DNA of 23,926 bases from a virus. A program made the translations under genes and the position numbers. Under the pieces are notes generated by a model, which saw nothing but the letters and a program-made list of their open reading frames with translations, did not search any database and was not told the origin of the DNA. The stretch is from positions 1 through 23,926 of IMG/VR virus record IMGVR_UViG_3300025632_000078. One strand, given 5' to 3'. Shown in pieces: positions 3,556 through 22,697 of this stretch; the first letter of the stretch is position 1; each line of letters begins with the position of its first letter.

Positions 3556-3657
3556 GTATACTATATATATATATTACTCTGTAAGAGTAACTAATTACAA
3601 TTAAATACTTATTATACTTATAAGTAATACTCTCTTTCAGAGAGTTAAAAAAAAACA
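3556..3657 (+). promoter_or_regulatory. AT-rich intergenic segment with three inverted repeats
   Basis: A 102-base gap between the lysis and early genes. It holds an alternating AT run (about 3558-3575), a perfect 7-bp stem with 3-base loop TTACTCT-GTA-AGAGTAA (3574-3590), a perfect palindrome ACTTATAAGT (3616-3625), and a second 7-bp stem ACTCTCT-TTC-AGAGAGT (3629-3645) followed by a run of A that leads into the ATG at 3658. Neither stem has a T run after it on the + strand, so these are not standard terminators. No TAnnTTTG box was found. Operator or RNA-processing roles are possible. Confidence 0.5.
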
Positions 3658-5180: not shown

Positions 5181-5210
5181 AGAGGGGTAGAGATGCTCCT
5201 CTTTTTTTTT
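5181..5210 (+). terminator. Rho-independent terminator after ssb
   Basis: Stem AGAGGGG (5181-5187) pairs with CTCCTCT (5196-5202) with one G-U pair and a loop of about eight bases. A run of T follows to 5210. It ends the 4519-5159 unit. A short CTCAG-GAT-CTGAG hairpin (5211-5223) follows directly. Confidence 0.85.
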
Positions 5211-12487: not shown

Positions 12488-12608
12488 CCTCATCCTAGTC
12501 AATAGAAATAACTACCATAAACTTCTAGAGATCTTAATACAATTAGATCAGAGAGGTAAACTTGCTCCCCATGAAAGGGAGTTTTTGCGTAACTTAGTTG
12601 ATTATTAA
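12474..12608 (+). CDS. Small helical protein, unknown (44 residues)
   Basis: Starts inside the upstream gene; its stop overlaps the ParB-like start as TAATG. Predicted as two helices (NNYHKLLEILIQLDQRG, HEREFLRNLVDY). No family recognised. Confidence 0.5.
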   Translation: MSKSSLILVNRNNYHKLLEILIQLDQRGKLAPHEREFLRNLVDY

Positions 12609-13246
12609 TGGGTTCTATAATTATGGAAAGAGTAGATATTAAGCAGGTAAGACCAAATCCTGATAACCCTAGATTCATCAAGGGGAATAAATTTGAGAAG
12701 TTAGTGAAGAGCATCAAGGAGTTTCCTCAGATGTTAGATCTACGACCTATAGTAGTGAATCAGGATATGATCGTACTAGGAGGGAATATGAGATTAAAGG
12801 CTTGTGAGGAAGCAGGACTCAAGGAAGTACCTATCATCTTTGCAGATAACCTAACTCCAGAACAAGAGAAGGAATTCATCATTAAGGATAACTCCTCATT
12901 CGGTGAATGGGATTGGGATCTACTTGCTAATGAATGGGATCTTCAGGATCTAGAGGATTGGGGTTTAGAGATTCCTAATCTAGATGATGAGGTAGATGAA
13001 TTAGAGGATGGAGAGGAGATTGAATTACCTCAGAGTGTTCAGGTAGAACCTCCAAAGGAATACATTCTGATTATGGCTGAACCTAATTCTGTAGATTGGG
13101 AGGATCTGAAAGAGACTCTACAACTAAAGATGGTTAGAAGAGGAGGATATAAGAAGGGATCAGGATTTGATGCCGTATCCTTAGAGAGAGTATTAGAATG
13201 GAGTGATCTAAAAGATAGAATCAATGCTGATAGCAGTACCAAGTAA
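12608..13246 (+). CDS. ParB/Srx-fold protein
   Basis: 212 residues. The N-terminal 85 residues are a ParB/sulfiredoxin-like nucleotide-binding domain: DNPR (19-22), LRPIVV, then GGNMR (58-62) in place of the usual GERR/GHRR, followed by EVPIIFAD. An acidic middle (DDEVDELEDGEEIE) and a C-terminal segment of unknown fold follow. Phage ParB-like proteins are common just upstream of small terminase genes, often with methyltransferases; here a glycosyltransferase follows instead (23-base overlap). It may act on DNA or nucleotides before packaging. Start 12608 makes TAATG with the upstream stop; ATG 12623 is an alternative. Confidence 0.82.
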   Translation: MGSIIMERVDIKQVRPNPDNPRFIKGNKFEKLVKSIKEFPQMLDLRPIVVNQDMIVLGGNMRLKACEEAGLKEVPIIFADNLTPEQEKEFIIKDNSSFGEWDWDLLANEWDLQDLEDWGLEIPNLDDEVDELEDGEEIELPQSVQVEPPKEYILIMAEPNSVDWEDLKETLQLKMVRRGGYKKGSGFDAVSLERVLEWSDLKDRINADSSTK

Positions 13247-13943
13247 GGGGAGAGCAGGACTCACAACGACAAATAAGATCTTACCTAACCTCAGCACATT
13301 CTTTATTCCAGAGAGTGAGTATCATCAATACAAGGGATTAGTAAAGAACATAGTATGTGTACCTAAGGAAGTGAGAGGGATCACAGATACTAGGAATTGG
13401 ATTCTAGAGAATACGGATGAGAAGTGGGTAGTGTTCTTAGATGATGATGCGAAGAATGTAGGGTATAACAAACTAGAGGAGAGAAAGACTAAGAAGATAG
13501 AGATCAGAGATGAGGGTTTCTGGGCAGAGGAGTTTCTTAAGTATTTTGATCTTACGGAGCAGTTAGGATATAAGATATGGGGAACGAGAACGGAATCCTC
13601 ACCTAGAGGTACATACCCTTATAAACCTTTCTTAACAAGATCCTATGTTACGGCTTCCTGTATGGGAATAGTCAATGATGGGGAATATCTATTTGATCCT
13701 GATTTCAAAGTGAAGGAGGATTATGAGATATGCTTGAGGCATATAAAGGATAAAGGAGGAATCTTAGCGGTTAGGTATTTGCATTGGGAGAATGAGCATT
13801 GGGTAACTGATGGAGGATGTAAGGATTATAGGACTATAGATATGGAGCGAGATGCGATCAAGAGGCTTATAAAACTATACCCAAGCATGATCTCTTCAGC
13901 GAAGAGGAAGGCTAATGAATTCACCATTAAATTGAATTTATAA
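13224..13943 (+). CDS. GT-A-fold glycosyltransferase, TET-associated (TAGT/GREB1) type
   Basis: 239 residues. Begins VPSKGR (5-10), then a T-T-x-K-x-L segment, a FIPE-x-E-x-x-x-Y phrase, VPKEVRGITDTRNWIL and the sugar-nucleotide/metal motif VVFLDDDA (70-76), followed by ASCMGIV and an EDYEICLRH acidic block. This order matches phage TAGT proteins, which are thought to glycosylate hydroxymethylated pyrimidines in DNA. Here no TET oxygenase or hydroxymethylase gene is in the window. It overlaps the ParB-like gene by 23 bases and its stop overlaps the small terminase start (TAATG). An alternative target, such as host or virion glycans, cannot be excluded. Confidence 0.72.
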   Translation: MLIAVPSKGRAGLTTTNKILPNLSTFFIPESEYHQYKGLVKNIVCVPKEVRGITDTRNWILENTDEKWVVFLDDDAKNVGYNKLEERKTKKIEIRDEGFWAEEFLKYFDLTEQLGYKIWGTRTESSPRGTYPYKPFLTRSYVTASCMGIVNDGEYLFDPDFKVKEDYEICLRHIKDKGGILAVRYLHWENEHWVTDGGCKDYRTIDMERDAIKRLIKLYPSMISSAKRKANEFTIKLNL

Positions 13944-14290
13944 TGGACAAAACTGAACAACATAAAAAGGCAATGCTAGAAGCCTTAGAAAAATCCTTAG
14001 GAGTAGTTACCTCAGCCTGTAAGAGTGTAGGTATAGGAAGGACTACTCACTACCTATGGTTAGATAATGATCCAGAGTATAGGAGAGCAGTTCAGGATGT
14101 GGAGAATGTTGCTATAGACTTTGCGGAATCACAATTGCATCAGCAGATAAAGGGAGGTAATCCAACCTCTACAATCTTCTACCTAAAGACTAAGGGTAAG
14201 AAGAGAGGATATGTAGAGAGACAGGAGATAGCCCATGAAGGGCTCAAGACCTTTGAGATAGAGGAAGTGGATGAGCAAAATCCGAGTTAA
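13943..14290 (+). CDS. terS: Terminase small subunit
   Basis: 115 residues. The N-terminal helix-turn-helix (KKAMLEALEKSLGVVTSACKSVGIGRTTHYLWL) is of the phage terminase/transposase-like type, followed by an oligomerisation helix (VENVAIDFAESQLHQQI) and the typical STIFYLKTKGKKRGY phrase. It recognises phage DNA and recruits the large subunit for packaging. It overlaps the large subunit gene by 20 bases. Confidence 0.87.
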   Translation: MDKTEQHKKAMLEALEKSLGVVTSACKSVGIGRTTHYLWLDNDPEYRRAVQDVENVAIDFAESQLHQQIKGGNPTSTIFYLKTKGKKRGYVERQEIAHEGLKTFEIEEVDEQNPS

Positions 14291-15425
14291 TAAAGTCTAC
14301 GGACATTTAAAGAGATCAGATAAGAAGATAGTAGTGGAACAGGGTGGTACTCGCTCTGGAAAGACATACAACATCCTCTTATGGATTATCTTTCATTATT
14401 GTGGGAAGAATGTAGGTAAGACTATTACAATCGCTAGAAAGACCTTTCCTGCAGTTCGCTCCTCAGTCATGAGGGACTTCTTAGATATCCTAAAAGGATC
14501 AGATCTCTATAGAGAGGAGAATCATAATAAGTCCAATTCAGAATACATCCTCAATGGGAATCTAGTAGAGTTTATATCTATGGATCAGCCTCAGAAGATC
14601 AGGGGTAGGAAGAGAGATCTAGCATTCTTAAATGAGGCTAATGAATTGACCTTTGAGGACTGGCAACAAATCGTATTCCGTACCAACGGAAGAATCATAC
14701 TTGATTACAATCCTTCAGATACTTTTCACTGGATCTATGACAGGGTAATACCAAGAGATGATGCAGCATTCTATCAAACCACCTATAGAGACAATCCATT
14801 CCTAGATCAGACTATCATAGATGAGATAGAGCGATTAAGGGAAACGGATGAGCATTACTGGAGAGTCTATGGATTAGGGGAGAGAGGAACGAATAGAGCA
14901 CAAGTATTCCAATTCACCACTATCCAGCAGATTCCTGCTTCTGCGAAGTTTCTATCTTATGGGCTTGACTTTGGATTTACTAATGATCCTTCTGCATTGG
15001 TGGGATGTTATCAAGATGGGAACAACCTATATTTTCAGGAGATGATCTATTCAACTAACCTAACTAATCAGGATCTGAATAGAGAATTCCAGAAGTTAGA
15101 GATAGGGAGGTATGATGAGATCTTTGGAGATTCAGCAGAACCTAAGAGTATAGAAGAACTCCACAGGATGGGATGGAACATTAAGCCTACGGCTAAGGGA
15201 TCAGATTCAGTCAATGCAGGGATAGATATGCTGAAGAGATTTAAGATTCATATCATAGGCTCTAATCTCATGAAGGAGATGGAGAATTATAAGTGGATGG
15301 AGGATAAGAATGGTAACCTCCTGAATAAGCCAGAGGATAAGTACAATCACTTGATAGATGCTATCAGGTATGGAGTATATAACAAACTAAGCAAACCTAA
15401 CTATGGGAGATACGCAATCCGTTAG
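14271..15425 (+). CDS. terL: Terminase large subunit (ATPase and nuclease)
   Basis: 384 residues. The motor domain has Walker A GGTRSGKT (25-32), Walker B LAFLNEAN (117-124, catalytic E122) and a coupling motif near DYNPS (145-149). The RNase H-like nuclease has Asp233 in GLDFGFTNDP, Asp287 in GDSAEP and Asp363 in HLIDAIRYG. It powers DNA packaging and cuts the concatemer. It overlaps terS by 20 bases and the following tail gene by 23 bases. No portal gene follows, which is unusual. Confidence 0.96.
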   Translation: MSKIRVNKVYGHLKRSDKKIVVEQGGTRSGKTYNILLWIIFHYCGKNVGKTITIARKTFPAVRSSVMRDFLDILKGSDLYREENHNKSNSEYILNGNLVEFISMDQPQKIRGRKRDLAFLNEANELTFEDWQQIVFRTNGRIILDYNPSDTFHWIYDRVIPRDDAAFYQTTYRDNPFLDQTIIDEIERLRETDEHYWRVYGLGERGTNRAQVFQFTTIQQIPASAKFLSYGLDFGFTNDPSALVGCYQDGNNLYFQEMIYSTNLTNQDLNREFQKLEIGRYDEIFGDSAEPKSIEELHRMGWNIKPTAKGSDSVNAGIDMLKRFKIHIIGSNLMKEMENYKWMEDKNGNLLNKPEDKYNHLIDAIRYGVYNKLSKPNYGRYAIR

Positions 15426-16053
15426 CATAGAGATTCCAGAGAATCTATCAGATATAAAACTATCAGCATACAAGAAGTTCATCCTTATGGCTAATGAGGA
15501 GAATGGTGATGAGATAGCCTTATATCAGTTCTGTGGCTTGACTCCTAGTCAGCAGGAAGCGATGAAGAAGAAAGATCTTGATGAGATCAGGAATCAGATA
15601 GGTATCGTATTGGCTGAAAAGCCTAACCTAGTAAAGACATTCACATTCAAGGGTAAGGAGTATGGATTTCATCCTAAGATAGAAGATATCTCTATGGGAG
15701 AGTATATTGATCTGGATACCTACCTACAAGATCCATATAAGAACGCTGAGAGGATATTAGGAGTCTTATATAGACCTATCACTAAGAAGATGTTTGGAAG
15801 GCATAGCATTGAGAATTATGATCCAGAGTCCCATAATGGGAATGGGTTTGAGGATCTAAGTGCTGATGTCTTTATGGGGTGTCTGCTTTTTTTTTATCGT
15901 ATCGCCACCAACTTACAGATAACTTTCCTACAATCTTTGGAGAAGGAGGAGAGGAAGGATATGATGCACAATCCAACTTCTCTAGGAAGTGGGGATGGTA
16001 TGGAGCAGTACATCAGATTGCTAAAGGAGATCTCCTACAATTTGAGAAAGTAA
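15403..16053 (+). CDS. Tail assembly chaperone, short (gpG-like) frame
   Basis: 216 residues in the zero frame. The N-terminal 160 residues match a protein type found in Bacteroidota phages: a LSAYKKFILM helix, a (F/Y)-x-FCGL phrase, then GKEYGFHPKIEDISMGEYIDLD and ILGVLYRPI, ending in an acidic YDPES stretch. These proteins resemble tail assembly chaperones that bind the tape measure. Just after codon 160 comes a run of nine T; a second ORF in the -1 frame continues past this gene's stop. The zero-frame tail (SLEKEER, SGDGMEQYIRLLKEI) also looks like real protein. It overlaps terL by 23 bases. Confidence 0.75.
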   Translation: MGDTQSVSIEIPENLSDIKLSAYKKFILMANEENGDEIALYQFCGLTPSQQEAMKKKDLDEIRNQIGIVLAEKPNLVKTFTFKGKEYGFHPKIEDISMGEYIDLDTYLQDPYKNAERILGVLYRPITKKMFGRHSIENYDPESHNGNGFEDLSADVFMGCLLFFYRIATNLQITFLQSLEKEERKDMMHNPTSLGSGDGMEQYIRLLKEISYNLRK

Positions 16054-16148
16054 CGGAGTTACCTCTAAGAACTGCACTCACATATCTGGAGTATGAGATA
16101 GATAAGAATGAGGTTGAGAAATCTATCATGAAAAAAAATCAACATTAG
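15879..16148 (+). CDS. Tail assembly chaperone, -1 frameshift extension (gpGT-like)
   Basis: An ORF in the -1 frame relative to the gene at 15403, open from a GTG at 15879. It is most likely reached by slippage, entering at 15894, which would give about 164 + 84 = 248 residues. The extension has a WGWYGAVHQIAKGDLLQFEKVTEL-type segment followed by LRTALTYLEYEIDKNEVE. This pattern (Trp-Tyr, small helix, KGD, F-x-x-V-T, L-x-x-x-L-x-Y) is the second part of chaperones in this phage group. Its overlap with the zero frame covers 175 bases from the GTG. Independent translation from GTG 15879 is possible but less likely. Confidence 0.65.
   Translation: MSAFFLSYRHQLTDNFPTIFGEGGEEGYDAQSNFSRKWGWYGAVHQIAKGDLLQFEKVTELPLRTALTYLEYEIDKNEVEKSIMKKNQH
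15887..15895 (+). other. Candidate -1 ribosomal frameshift site (nine T)
   Basis: In the zero frame the codons read CTT (15886), TTT (15889), TTT (15892), TAT (15895). T-TTT-TTT at 15888-15894 is a slippery heptamer on which both tRNAs can re-pair after moving back one base. A -1 shift leads exactly into the ORF ending at 16148. Confidence 0.65.
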
Positions 16149-17386: not shown

Positions 17387-17884
17387 ATGAACGGAGAGAA
17401 TACAAAGAAGGCATTAGATAAGTTCGGTAAGTATCTTGTTAAGGAGTCTAGAAAGAACCTTACGAGAAAGAAGAAGAATGTAACTAATAGCCTCTATGAA
17501 TCTCTGGACTTTGATGTGAAGGCTATGCCGAACTCTTTTGAGTTTGACTTCCTGATGAATGAATATGGTGAGTGGGTAGATAAGGGAAGGAAGGCAGGAA
17601 AGAATCCTCCATTCTCACCACTAAGGAAATGGGTACAGGATCGCAGGATTCAGTTCAGAAGCAATAAGGGGAAATTCCAGAGTTATGATCAAACGGCTTG
17701 GGCGATAGTCAAGAGCATTGGTAAGAAGGGCATCCCTGCATCTAACTTCTATTCTAGACCATTTAACTTAGGATATGCTAAACTCCCTAATGAGATAGTA
17801 GAGGCATATGCTCTAGATGTAGAGGATTTTCTAGAGTTTACAATAGACAAATTAAACGAGCAGTATAAAGATGGCGGTAATTAG
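17387..17884 (+). CDS. HK97 gp10-like neck / head-tail joining protein
   Basis: 165 residues. An N-terminal helix with basic residues (FGKYLVKESRKNLTRKKKN), an LYESLDFDVKAMPNSFEFDF strand pair, then EYGEWVDKGRKAGKNPPFSP and WVQDRRIQFR. The Y-(A/G)-x-(F/W)-x-(E/D)-x-G phrase and the later FYSRPF match gp10/HK97-type neck proteins. It probably links head and tail. It is contiguous with the upstream gene and overlaps the next by 14 bases. Confidence 0.72.
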   Translation: MNGENTKKALDKFGKYLVKESRKNLTRKKKNVTNSLYESLDFDVKAMPNSFEFDFLMNEYGEWVDKGRKAGKNPPFSPLRKWVQDRRIQFRSNKGKFQSYDQTAWAIVKSIGKKGIPASNFYSRPFNLGYAKLPNEIVEAYALDVEDFLEFTIDKLNEQYKDGGN

Positions 17885-19103
17885 CCCAACGGGATTATTA
17901 GGAACGAGATCACCTATCCTCATTACTTGGAATGGTACAGGTAGTTCAGCAAGTGATATCTATTATTTTAAGTTAGAGATCTATGCTTGGACAGGAGATA
18001 AGGATGTAAGACCTGCATCTCCTACTTACACGATAGATAGAACATCAGGATTTGTTGATGCATTTCCAACTGCTGATATCGCTCCTATCTTAGAGAATGA
18101 ATTCAATCAGCGAGTAAGTAAGTTAGATACAGAAGATCTAGTAACGATGTCTCCAGATGCTCTATTATGGGTTGAGGTAGATTATGATATTGAGTATTTA
18201 GATGATCCTAATGTCGTAAATGATACAGGCACTACTACTCGCTTCTTAGTTACAGATGGATATAGTAAGTTCACTGATGGCTCAAATAAGGATCTAGGAC
18301 AGGCTATCTTGATTGAAGATCAGGATAAGTATTTCTATGAGTTTGATACTTACAATATGCCTATCTACTTAGGTGATGTAGGCAGTAGCTATCAGACTGA
18401 TGTAGTAAAGATTAAGCTAGTAGGATCTGATGCTTCTAATGATACGATAGTAGTAAGTAATCAGACAGGAGAAGATGCAGAGGATAGAGTTCTGTTGTTC
18501 CCTGTGGGTATTCCTAATCTATCTAATTATGTCTTTACAGAGGGCTTAGGATTATCAGAGCCTCGCTTGTTAGATTGGTGGGATGTCCAGATACTAGACT
18601 CTAGTGATGCAGTAGTAGATAGTAGAAGATTCTACAATCAATGTGAGCCTAAGTATACTCCTATTCAACTGCAGTACATTAACAGATATGGAATGTGGGA
18701 CACAATGACCTTCTTTAAGAGGTCAGATACTGATTTAGATGTAAGTAAGGAGAGTTACAGATCAGTGATAGGTTCAGCATCAGCATCTGGATATACTTGG
18801 GGAGATCAAGCGAGAGGCAAGAGATCCTATAATGAGGAGATGAGCAAGATAATCACGATGAATACAGGATTCATTGAAGAGGTATCTAATGAGAATCTAG
18901 AGCAGTTATTGATGAGTCCTTATGTAGTGATGACTATCAATAGAACGACTACAAGAGTTCAAGATACTTACACGATAGCACAGGATTTTAGAGCAGTCAA
19001 TGTATTGACCGAATCTCTAAGACTCCAGAAGCATATCAATGAGAAGACTATCAATTATACAATACAGGTAGAGTTTGCAACACCTGATAATGCAATGCTA
19101 TGA
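17871..19103 (+). CDS. Tail / baseplate structural protein, beta-rich (410 residues)
   Basis: The N-terminus (SPTGLLGTRSPILITW, then KLEIYAWTGDK) looks like a fibronectin-type or jelly-roll domain of a kind frequent in Bacteroidota phage tails. The middle has acidic beta strands and the C-terminus contains GYTWGDQARGKRSYNEEMS and a strand-rich end (YTIQVEFATPDNAM). It overlaps its neighbours by 14 and 4 bases. It is placed between neck and hub genes, so it is likely a tail tube or tail-tip component; the exact role is not clear. Not a portal: no helical stem or clip region is visible. Confidence 0.6.
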   Translation: MAVISPTGLLGTRSPILITWNGTGSSASDIYYFKLEIYAWTGDKDVRPASPTYTIDRTSGFVDAFPTADIAPILENEFNQRVSKLDTEDLVTMSPDALLWVEVDYDIEYLDDPNVVNDTGTTTRFLVTDGYSKFTDGSNKDLGQAILIEDQDKYFYEFDTYNMPIYLGDVGSSYQTDVVKIKLVGSDASNDTIVVSNQTGEDAEDRVLLFPVGIPNLSNYVFTEGLGLSEPRLLDWWDVQILDSSDAVVDSRRFYNQCEPKYTPIQLQYINRYGMWDTMTFFKRSDTDLDVSKESYRSVIGSASASGYTWGDQARGKRSYNEEMSKIITMNTGFIEEVSNENLEQLLMSPYVVMTINRTTTRVQDTYTIAQDFRAVNVLTESLRLQKHINEKTINYTIQVEFATPDNAML

Positions 19104-21091
19104 TAGAGATCTATATAGGATCAGAGAGAATAGACACCTTTAAGGATGAGGATGTGAATATCACATTGAGCATTCAGAATATAAAAGATATATCTAGGCT
19201 CTTTACTGATTTCACTCAGAACTTTCAAGTACCTGCCTCAAGGCAGAATAATGATGTATTTAAGCATTACTATAATGCTGATATCTCAGGAGGGTTTAAT
19301 GCAGCACTAAGACAGGATGCTACAATCTTTATGAATAAGGAATTATTCAGAGAGGGTTCTATTGAGTTGATGTCTGTGGATATGGTTAATGGTAAGCCTT
19401 CTGCTTATGAGGTTGTGTTCTTTTCTGCAGGGGTAAATCTCAAAGATTTATTCGGTGAGGATGAATTAACGGATCTTGATTTATCAGCATATGACCACGC
19501 CTATGATGGTGCAGTGATTAGAGGAGCAATGGAAGGAACTACTCCTCTTCATTCTGGGAATGTTATCTATCCATTAATATCTCCTGTTAATGATTGGTTT
19601 TATGATAGTGCCTCAAGCACTCACGATGATAATGATATCGCCTATCATACCAGTAATGATAATCATGGCTTAGATTACTATGAGTTAAAACCTGCTATCA
19701 GGATCAGCAAGTTGATAGATGCGATTGAGAGTAAGTATGGAATCACTTTCACATCTACCTTCTTCAGTAACTCAAAGTTCACAGATTTATTCCTATGGGG
19801 ACATAGAAGAGAGGGGTATATGTTCTTTGATCAGGCGAATGGATATACTGCTGAAAAGATTGATTTTACCTCAGCTACAGGATTGTTTGATGTTACTACA
19901 GACACCTATACAAATGGCCCATTTACCACAAGTTTAATTTGGAGATATTCAATTACATCTTCAGATGACTATCAATTACATTGGTATGTGAATGGTCAGT
20001 ATGTAATGAGCAGACAACATTCAGGAAGTGTAACTAATGAAGAGGTATATCTTAATGCTTGGCTAAGTGGAGGAGATAAGGTACAGATAAGATTCTCGCC
20101 TCCTATTGATTGGAATGGAAATACTATTACTATTGATTCATGTAGTAGCGATGGAAGACCTTCAGGAGCAGGAGTAGTATCATTTACTGCATCTACTTCA
20201 ACTCCTCAATCATTCAATACAGATGTTATCATGAGTGATCAGATGCCTGAGCAGAAGGTCTATGATTTCATTCTAGGTCTAGTGAAGATGTTTAATCTAG
20301 TGATTGAGCCAACAAGCAGGACTAAGTTTATTGTAGAGCCACTAGATGATTGGTATGCTTTAGGATCTAACTATGATATTACTGATCATGTAGATATATC
20401 TTCTGAGAAAGTTACGAAGCCAGAACTCTATAGAAGGATCTCATTCAAGTATCAGGAATCTGGATCATATCTAGAGGAGGCATACAGAAACACAAACGGA
20501 GGTATAGGATATGGAGATCTGAGAGCAGACTTTACCTTTGATGGTGGAGAGTTGAGTGCTGAATCAACATTTGAATTAATGAAATATCAGAAGTTAGATG
20601 ATCCTAGCAATGGTATTGTGAATTTCCTAGTAGGAAAGAGTATTGATAAGGAAGGAGATCCGTATATCGGTCAGCCTGTAATCTTCTACTCACCAAGCAC
20701 ATTAAACATCTCATCCTATCCAATTGGATTCCTAGATGAATCAGGAAGAACAACCACTGCCTCTAATCAAGTGTATCTATGTGGAAATATAAATAACAGA
20801 GTTGCAGCAGATGTAACGCAAATGCTAACCTATGGACTTGAAGTTGATCCTCTTCATGAGCAGAGTTTCGTGCAGACCTTATACAATCAATTCTGGGAAG
20901 ATTATATCACTGATCTCTACTCAACTAGCAGGAGGATATATCAGATGAAGGCGATACTGCCTTTTAGTGTCTCTTCTCAGTTGAGGATGAATGATAAGTT
21001 AGATATCAATGGAAGGAGATATGTTATTAATGAGATCCAGATAAACCTGAGAACTCAGGAGGCTACTTTGGAACTTCTAAACGATGTGTGA
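19100..21091 (+). CDS. Tail tip / baseplate hub-like protein (663 residues)
   Basis: Starts with MIEIYIGSERIDTF, then a DISRLFTDFTQNFQVPASRQNN phrase and a FKHYYNADI segment. This N-terminus is common in Bacteroidota siphophage tail-tip proteins. A stretch at about 244-379 differs in style: it reads as an extra beta-sandwich (QLHWYVNGQYVMS, VYLNAWLSGG, IRFSPP) and has no GATC sites. The C-terminal part (FILGLVKMFNLVIEP and NDKLDINGRRYVINEIQI) is similar to hub domains that bind the tail tube. It overlaps the upstream gene by 4 bases and the next by TGATG. Confidence 0.65.
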   Translation: MIEIYIGSERIDTFKDEDVNITLSIQNIKDISRLFTDFTQNFQVPASRQNNDVFKHYYNADISGGFNAALRQDATIFMNKELFREGSIELMSVDMVNGKPSAYEVVFFSAGVNLKDLFGEDELTDLDLSAYDHAYDGAVIRGAMEGTTPLHSGNVIYPLISPVNDWFYDSASSTHDDNDIAYHTSNDNHGLDYYELKPAIRISKLIDAIESKYGITFTSTFFSNSKFTDLFLWGHRREGYMFFDQANGYTAEKIDFTSATGLFDVTTDTYTNGPFTTSLIWRYSITSSDDYQLHWYVNGQYVMSRQHSGSVTNEEVYLNAWLSGGDKVQIRFSPPIDWNGNTITIDSCSSDGRPSGAGVVSFTASTSTPQSFNTDVIMSDQMPEQKVYDFILGLVKMFNLVIEPTSRTKFIVEPLDDWYALGSNYDITDHVDISSEKVTKPELYRRISFKYQESGSYLEEAYRNTNGGIGYGDLRADFTFDGGELSAESTFELMKYQKLDDPSNGIVNFLVGKSIDKEGDPYIGQPVIFYSPSTLNISSYPIGFLDESGRTTTASNQVYLCGNINNRVAADVTQMLTYGLEVDPLHEQSFVQTLYNQFWEDYITDLYSTSRRIYQMKAILPFSVSSQLRMNDKLDINGRRYVINEIQINLRTQEATLELLNDV

Positions 21092-21234
21092 TGCACTTGG
21101 GTTTTATAATTGAGCAACTTCAGAAAGTAGAAGCTACAGATCAGGATTTGATGATAGCTAAAGGAGAATGGAAGATTCTCACTAAGTGGAGCGAAGCTAA
21201 AGAACAAATTAGATGGCGGTTAAGAAAGAAATAG
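21091..21234 (+). CDS. Small protein, unknown (47 residues)
   Basis: TGATG overlap with the hub gene; its end runs 22 bases into the tape measure gene, in another frame. Predicted helical with a basic end (TKWSEAKEQIRWRLRKK). Coupled overlaps on both sides support a real gene. No family recognised. Confidence 0.5.
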   Translation: MHLGFIIEQLQKVEATDQDLMIAKGEWKILTKWSEAKEQIRWRLRKK

Positions 21235-22697
21235 AGATCAATGTAAATACTAGCAAGGCTGAGAAGAGCGTAGATGATCTAGAGGGAGGTCTTGAGGGAG
21301 TTACTGCACAAGCAGATAAACTCACAGGAGGGTTAGTATCAGGCTTCAAGAAGGGAGTTGCAGGAATCAAGCAGGGAATCACTGCTATGAAGTCTCTGAA
21401 GGTTGCTATCGCAGCCACAGGGATAGGTCTATTATTGATTGCTATTACTTCCCTTACATCTTACTTCACTAAGACTCAGAGAGGTGCTGATAAGTTATCT
21501 CAGGCACTTAAGGGAATGGGTGCAGTAGTTGATGTGTTAGTAGATAGATTCTCAACATTTGGAGAGGGCATCTTTGCGATATTCTCTGGAGACTTTGCTA
21601 AGGGTGTAGATATCCTGAAGGGATCATTCAAGGGATTAGGTGATGAGATCAGATCAGAAGCAAAAGCAGCAATTGATCTAGAGAAAGCACAACAGGCTCT
21701 AGAGGATAGACAGATATCTCTAATTAAGGTCAATGCAGAAAGGAGAGCATCTATTGAAGCATTAAGACTTGCAGCAGAAGATGAGAATAAGACTAATGCT
21801 GAGAGAGCAGATGCACTTAGAGAGGCAGCTAGACTCCAGAATGAGATTGCTGATGATGAGATATCTATAGCTAAGGAAAGAGCGAGAATAATTAGAGAGC
21901 GAGTTGCTTTAGGGGAGTCATCAAGAGATGATATTAGAGAACAAGCAGAGGCAGAGGCTAGAATCATTGAGCTAGAAGCGGAGAGAGATAGAAGATTAAA
22001 ATCTTTAGTAACTAGATTGAATGCCTTTACTAAGGCTCAGGATGAGGCTACTGATTCAACACAGAAATACAATGAGGAATTAACTAAGATTGCCTCTAAG
22101 GAGATTCAGTTTGCTGCAGATACTAATGCAGTTACATTAGCTATGCATAAAGATCTAAGGTCTAGTATGGCTATGATAGATCAGCAGTATGCGAATGTTG
22201 CTGATGGAATCAGAAAGGATTCCCTTAAGAAGACAAGAAGCCAGAAGATGGCTGAATTAGATATCATTGCAGGTACTCTAGGATCATTAAGTCAGTTAGC
22301 AGGAGAGAATGCTCAATCTGGAAAAGCACTAAGTGCTGCAGAGGCTATCATCAATACTTATACAGGGGCTACGAAGGCACTTGCTCAAGGTGGTATATTT
22401 GGTGCAGTTGCAGCAGCAGGAGTTGTCGCATCAGGTATCGCATCGGTAAGACAGATATATGCTACACCAATTCCTGCGACTACAGGAGGCGGTGGTGGAG
22501 GATCAACACCTAGACCACAGATATCAGCACCTGCAATCACTCCTAGATTATCATTGAACACTCAAGTATCTGATCTAGGGAATCAGATTACAGAGTCTCT
22601 AAGTAAGACTCCTGTGAGAGCATATGTAGTGAATCAAGATGTGCAGACTGCTGCGAAGATGGATAGAAAGATTAGAGAAACGGCAACAATAGGATAG
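21213..22697 (+). CDS. Tail tape measure protein (short)
   Basis: 494 residues. A polar N-terminus with EKSVDDLEGGLEG and a KLTGGLVSGFKKG repeat leads to a hydrophobic helix (VAIAATGIGLLLIAITSL, about 67-84). A long coiled-coil, rich in Ala, Glu and Arg, covers about 150-270. A Gly/Ala-rich hydrophobic stretch (ALAQGGIFGAVAAAGVVASG) lies near 388-407, then a run of Gly and a polar C-terminus. This layout is typical of tape measures. At about 0.15 nm per residue the tail would be near 75 nm, which is short. A pore-forming or internal virion protein is the alternative. Confidence 0.75.
   Translation: MAVKKEIEINVNTSKAEKSVDDLEGGLEGVTAQADKLTGGLVSGFKKGVAGIKQGITAMKSLKVAIAATGIGLLLIAITSLTSYFTKTQRGADKLSQALKGMGAVVDVLVDRFSTFGEGIFAIFSGDFAKGVDILKGSFKGLGDEIRSEAKAAIDLEKAQQALEDRQISLIKVNAERRASIEALRLAAEDENKTNAERADALREAARLQNEIADDEISIAKERARIIRERVALGESSRDDIREQAEAEARIIELEAERDRRLKSLVTRLNAFTKAQDEATDSTQKYNEELTKIASKEIQFAADTNAVTLAMHKDLRSSMAMIDQQYANVADGIRKDSLKKTRSQKMAELDIIAGTLGSLSQLAGENAQSGKALSAAEAIINTYTGATKALAQGGIFGAVAAAGVVASGIASVRQIYATPIPATTGGGGGGSTPRPQISAPAITPRLSLNTQVSDLGNQITESLSKTPVRAYVVNQDVQTAAKMDRKIRETATIG

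Follow-up and report, generated by a model that had tools for sequence, protein, structure and literature searches.

A conserved run of nine or ten T between two selected reading frames in a putative tail chaperone gene of Bacteroidota phages, and its probable use for transcriptional slippage

The paired gene and its surroundings

The sequence analysed here, the window, is the whole of IMG/VR virus record IMGVR_UViG_3300025632_000078 (23,926 bases). It contains a gene whose zero-frame ORF, as read from the window, extends from 15403 to 16053 (216 aa) and includes nine consecutive T at 15887-15895, with the zero-frame codons CTT TTT TTT TAT across the run. The genes and features of the region are as follows.

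14271..15425, + strand: terL, terminase large subunit (PF04466, PF17288); overlaps the start of the paired gene by 23 nt
15403..15894, + strand: shared N-terminal domain of both predicted products, 164 zero-frame codons; conserved family A2/A5; PHROG 32199, unknown function
15887..15895, + strand: candidate slippage site, nine T (C-T9-A); T9/T10 in 246/246 distinct related contexts, exact T9 in 189/189 matches listed from length-free DNA scans
15895..16053, + strand: 52-codon zero-frame tail of the short product, ending in TAA; dN/dS 0.50, stop column kept in 65/65
15894..16148, + strand: -1-frame C-terminal domain of the predicted long product, 84 codons and stop, with a KWGWY motif; dN/dS 0.31, three-helix model
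15894..16053, + strand: dual-coding overlap of both frames; fewer -1-frame third-position changes inside than after the overlap
17387..17884, + strand: 165-aa protein of the same operon; order conserved down to a Prevotella contig, E 1e-5 to L161:8798
19100..21091, + strand: 663-aa protein of the same operon; by eye, the N-terminus is similar to that of the large protein in the corresponding position of L159 and L161, not significant in phmmer
21213..22697, + strand: probable tape measure protein of the same operon, 494 aa; PHROG 3336, tail length tape measure, E 5e-10

Direct reading of the window agreed with the layout described in an earlier note on this DNA: the nine T carry T-TTT-TTT in the zero frame, the -1 ORF ends at 16148, which is 95 bases beyond the zero-frame stop, and 52 zero-frame codons lie downstream of the slip, with about 160 bases (157 in the earlier count) read in both frames. 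This T9 is the only A/T run of at least nine letters inside a gene of the window, the others (A9 at 3647 and T9 at 5202) both being intergenic. An A8 is located at 16131-16138, just 5' of the end of the -1 ORF; the corresponding tract in relatives is A6-A8 or absent, so that the long product differs among them in its final few residues.

The order of the putative tail operon is terL, the pair, small proteins, the 165-aa, 410-aa and 663-aa proteins, and the probable tape measure, which is on the same strand and begins 5 kb beyond the pair, not directly after it. The pair is also located upstream of proteins of similar sizes in Dysgonomonas and Prevotella contigs, and one of these proteins matches the 165-aa protein of the window. 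A position right after terL had been called uncommon in the earlier note, which is true in comparison with lambda, but the Nonlabens phages P12024S and P12024L have the pair at the same position.

In Bacteroidales contigs (L159:5512-6738 and L161:5519-7375), an integrase or serine recombinase gene is found close upstream of the pair, which is an unusual place for a tail gene. Elsewhere in the window, a ParB-like protein (12608-13246) adjoins a protein at 13224-13943 that starts MLIAVPSKGRAGLTTTNKILPNLS and that, by eye, looks like a phage glycosyltransferase.

Conservation of the run and of the two frames

Both frame products were used as queries and matched 47 and 46 IMG/VR loci, respectively, and a profile of the -1-frame domain matched at least 592 stretches in IMG/VR, of which 80 were used. 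Six Bacteroidota genome contigs, including those of Dysgonomonas and Prevotella, were also matched, and the two Nonlabens phages were relatives at 28% identity with the same junction; a tblastn search of phage isolates with divergent members returned no relatives beyond these Nonlabens phages. Most of the fetched loci were found through protein motifs and not through the T run, the remainder coming from two DNA scans of IMG/VR with fixed flanks, in which 7-11 letters were admitted and any base was allowed at the last places. Wherever the junction was covered, the run marked the point at which the zero frame gives way to the -1 frame. With runs of at least six letters admitted, T9 was present in 225 and T10 in 21 of 246 distinct related contexts, which span down to about 28% identity and reach the Dysgonomonas and Prevotella contigs, and no run of 6-8 or of 11 or more letters occurred among them. 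All matches listed from the two DNA scans contained exact T9 (69/69 and 120/120, that is, 189/189). Conservation to this extent is well beyond what chance would produce.

These counts bear on two explanations that place the change of frame in the DNA itself. Homopolymers are error-prone, and a sequencing error might have split one fused ORF; the earlier note had allowed for ten T and a single ORF at this site. However, relatives keep nine T, isolate genomes and hundreds of assemblies made independently of one another share this run length, and the zero-frame tail is under purifying selection. Because T9 or T10 was found in 246/246 contexts and exact T9 in the listed matches of the length-free scans, we regard a sequencing error as excluded for practical purposes. 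A contingency (phase-variable) tract, in which replication slippage would toggle the fusion at the DNA level, is suggested by Dysgonomonas sp. 520, where one copy has T9 and split frames (L159:7522-8276) and a prophage copy in the same strain has T10 (L160:7521-8273), so that both parts form one ORF of 251 residues. Length variants are otherwise absent, however, with exact T9 in all 189 listed matches even though T7-T11 were admitted, and the selection on the zero-frame tail implies that both products are kept, which makes such a tract extremely improbable. The two Dysgonomonas copies could differ by natural variation, through decay of a prophage or because of an error in sequencing. Aligning the T10 protein, which is fused in nature, together with the others misplaced fragments, and this alignment was left out of the analysis.

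Substitutions in the window clade were counted by parsimony on FastTree trees of 65 distinct relatives; for dN/dS, changes were classed by their effect in both frames, and intervals were obtained by codon or site resampling. Third positions of the -1 frame changed 3.54 times per site in the overlap and 7.28 times after the zero-frame stop, whereas those of the zero frame upstream changed 7.23 times per site. The dN/dS was 0.31 (95% CI 0.21-0.44) for the -1 frame and 0.50 (95% CI 0.32-0.81) for the zero-frame tail, and the zero-frame stop fell at one column in 65/65 relatives. When 13 other clusters were pooled, the corresponding values were 0.45 (0.40-0.51) and 0.73 (0.62-0.84); selection on the zero-frame tail was weaker there than in the window clade, and some small single clusters exceeded 1. 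Judged by these substitution patterns, each of the two frames after the run is real, selected protein. This is what the earlier note had suspected: dN/dS is below 1 in each frame, the synonymous-site conservation that it had suggested looking for appears as a rate of change at -1-frame third positions that is halved within the overlap relative to outside it, and relatives conserve both frames rather than only one.

In P12024L and P12024S (L090:2552-3246 and L091:2552-3246), the pair is annotated as two separate hypothetical genes, the -1 ORF extends back to the same T9, and only 25 zero-frame codons follow the run. This annotation would fit two overlapping genes of which the second starts on its own and is never fused to the first. 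However, the -1 frame of the window contains no ATG, GTG or TTG between the T run and the KWGWY motif, 30 of the 68 non-redundant relatives likewise have none before KWGW, and no start is conserved among the 68. Furthermore, the -1 peptide is conserved from the T run itself onward (LSFR...), and separate genes would have no need to keep T9. The single ORF of the T10 prophage L160, in which both parts are naturally joined, also speaks for a fusion. We consider an arrangement as separate genes very unlikely, and these comparisons support a programmed switch at the T run, from the zero into the -1 frame, by which the overlapping ORFs would be joined.

Flavobacterium phage 6H, a weak fold match, was considered as a further relative and rejected, with no T9 near the gene end and no clear -1 ORF. 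In this phage (L247:10048-10927, minus strand), the 300 bases after the weak fold relative carry no annotation and contain open stretches in other frames; the region may be a further frameshifted pair that uses another site.

Polymerase or ribosome at the run

The programmed change of frame proposed in the earlier note was retained, but a ribosomal slip, as in lambda gpG/gpGT, agreed less well with a run of at least nine letters held in any codon phase, with the lack of TTC and with the lack of a conserved stem beside the run. A -1 ribosomal frameshift on T_TTT_TTT, which the longer run would only help, is the main rival explanation. U_UUU_UUU shifts in E. coli (PMC4066793), all of the described tail-chaperone frameshifts that we found are ribosomal (PMC5009743), and the heptamer is in frame in 68/68 non-redundant relatives; any T9 implies such a heptamer. 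Since every T9 contains it, a ribosomal slip would be possible at each site.

A ribosomal heptamer requires 1+3+3 letters only, yet the seven-letter motif never occurred alone, 7 or 8 T being present in none of the 246 contexts. Four classes of run were distinguished by codon phase among the 68 non-redundant relatives: 2+3+3+1 (47 relatives), 1+3+3+2 (8), 3+3+3+1 (3) and 2+3+3+2 (10). The extra 5' T is missing in eight relatives, and all eight have two T on the 3' side; under independence, the chance of this compensation is about 6e-6 by our own arithmetic, which ignores relatedness. At least seven class changes were placed on the protein tree, in which several joins are weak. A homopolymer of at least nine letters is thus kept at the frame junction independently of codon phase, and this retention of length while the phase moved several times favours the polymerase over the ribosome. 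Part of the pattern of flanking letters may come from the amino-acid constraint of dual coding.

The last base of the heptamer was never C in the 68 non-redundant relatives, whereas TTC makes up 32% of the upstream Phe codons. In the main class, a change from T to C at this base is silent in both frames, and in the rest of the overlap substitutions without effect on either protein numbered 7 at 1.1 sites, or roughly six per site. In E. coli, UUC motifs are among the efficient ribosomal ones, with a good shift on U_UUU_UUC (PMC4066793). The absence of TTT-to-TTC changes therefore counts for the polymerase, since E. coli ribosomes tolerate this change. In addition, pseudoknot-free folding of 44-nt windows on each side of the run in the 68 relatives revealed no excess over shuffled sequences, and Bacteroidia ribosomes do not recognise Shine-Dalgarno sequences (PMC9976891); a site with no conserved RNA stem, in hosts with such ribosomes, also favours the polymerase.

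Selection against slippage-prone runs, at a length of nine, is visible in many bacterial genomes (PMC1088944). Among 1,168 other genes of these phages (891 kb), we found 16 A/T runs of at least nine letters. Nine of these are variant-motif forms of the programmed site, and the other seven compare with about 52 expected from codon shuffling. This near absence of long runs from other genes is again in favour of the polymerase, but T8 and T7 runs were also depleted (5 versus 30 and 47 versus 105, respectively), and the threshold at nine is therefore not sharp. In-frame T7 was avoided no more than out-of-frame T7 in these genes (30/66 versus 12/20 and 5/19), which speaks against the ribosome as the slipping machine. 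A stop in the third frame was observed within three codons of the run in 62 of the 68 relatives and would also truncate products of the opposite slip; such stops were considered as support for two-way slippage and discounted, being mostly forced by the dual coding of L and F-R. Weighing these lines together, we regard a ribosomal frameshift as rather unlikely at this site, and programmed transcriptional slippage by RNA polymerase as probable on comparative grounds.

A putative tail chaperone pair compared with known systems

The AlphaFold2 model of the short product is confident (mean pLDDT 84) and consists of a small mixed domain, a long helix (154-189) spanning the slip and a second helix (198-215); the -1 domain is modelled as three helices after a short helical lead (pLDDT 81). 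Searches of Pfam, PHROG and PDB with single proteins and alignments yielded no functional label and no supported Pfam family. The PDB fold searches returned chance helix matches only and listed no known tail chaperone structure, which does not imply a different fold, and the best viral fold matches were uncharacterised proteins, mostly of tailed phages. A frameshifted pair in the tail operon is a hallmark of tail assembly chaperones (PMC5009743), and the presence of such a pair in an apparent tail operon makes this role the best guess. We consider it likely that the pair are tail assembly chaperones, from gene order and architecture and not from homology; the reading given in the earlier note fits the architecture and the operon, but our searches found no match in sequence or fold to a known tail chaperone.

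The explanation that we propose, and hold to be reasonably probable, is that one gene of the tail operon gives two proteins in a set ratio through RNA polymerase slippage, as a pair resembling gpG/gpGT. Faithful transcription of T9 would yield the short product of 216 aa (164 shared codons and the 52-codon zero-frame tail). In part of the transcripts, RNA polymerase would slip on U9, and mRNAs with one extra U, or with two fewer, would be read into the -1 frame to give a product of 248 aa (the 164 shared codons and 84 more, which encode the three-helix domain with KWGWY). The pair would then work like gpG and gpGT of lambda, binding the tape measure and recruiting the tail protein, in a ratio of short and long forms that we infer. 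Extended across Bacteroidota phages, a tail chaperone pair with its ratio set by polymerase slippage at T9/T10, together with about 50 dual-coded, selected codons, appears somewhat more probable than not.

The ratio of tail chaperone products is a classic example of programmed ribosomal frameshifting. In the open-licence literature searched, we found no account of a phage tail gene that uses programmed transcriptional slippage, and such a paper may exist elsewhere. If the proposal is true, a phage group has solved the same problem in a second way, by polymerase slippage, in hosts with ribosomes that take no notice of Shine-Dalgarno sequences. T9/T10 before KWGWY may serve as a marker with which the pair can be found and correctly annotated, where isolate genomes list two hypothetical genes. 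For comparative work, the pair is also a clear case of overlapping frames that are both under selection.

Like lambda gpG/gpGT and its HK97-type relatives, the pair comprises a short and a frameshift-extended product with a shared N-terminal domain, encoded in the tail operon, and the extension is a separate C-terminal domain. It differs from lambda in its site (G_GGA_AAG in lambda, T9/T10 with probable polymerase slippage here), in the selected 52-codon zero-frame tail that overlaps the extension, and in the location of the gene after terL and away from the tape measure, with no sequence or fold match found between the two. In Shigella mxiE and spa13, two overlapping ORFs are likewise connected when a non-templated base is added at a homopolymer (PMC5009743, PMC1088944), and 25-30% of the spa13 product is extended (PMC5009743), whereas the gene described here belongs to a phage tail operon and has a long dual-coded stretch after the run. 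In potyviruses, polymerase slippage at a conserved homopolymer similarly opens an overlapping ORF, P3N-PIPO, but the enzyme is an RNA virus replicase, the site is GAAAAAA and the proteins are unrelated to the pair. Thermus dnaX and IS elements with 9A or 9T also keep nine identical A or T letters for two products (PMC1088944); in dnaX, however, the slip leads to a shorter product at a nearby stop, whereas in these phages slip and no slip would each lead to a long, selected tail.
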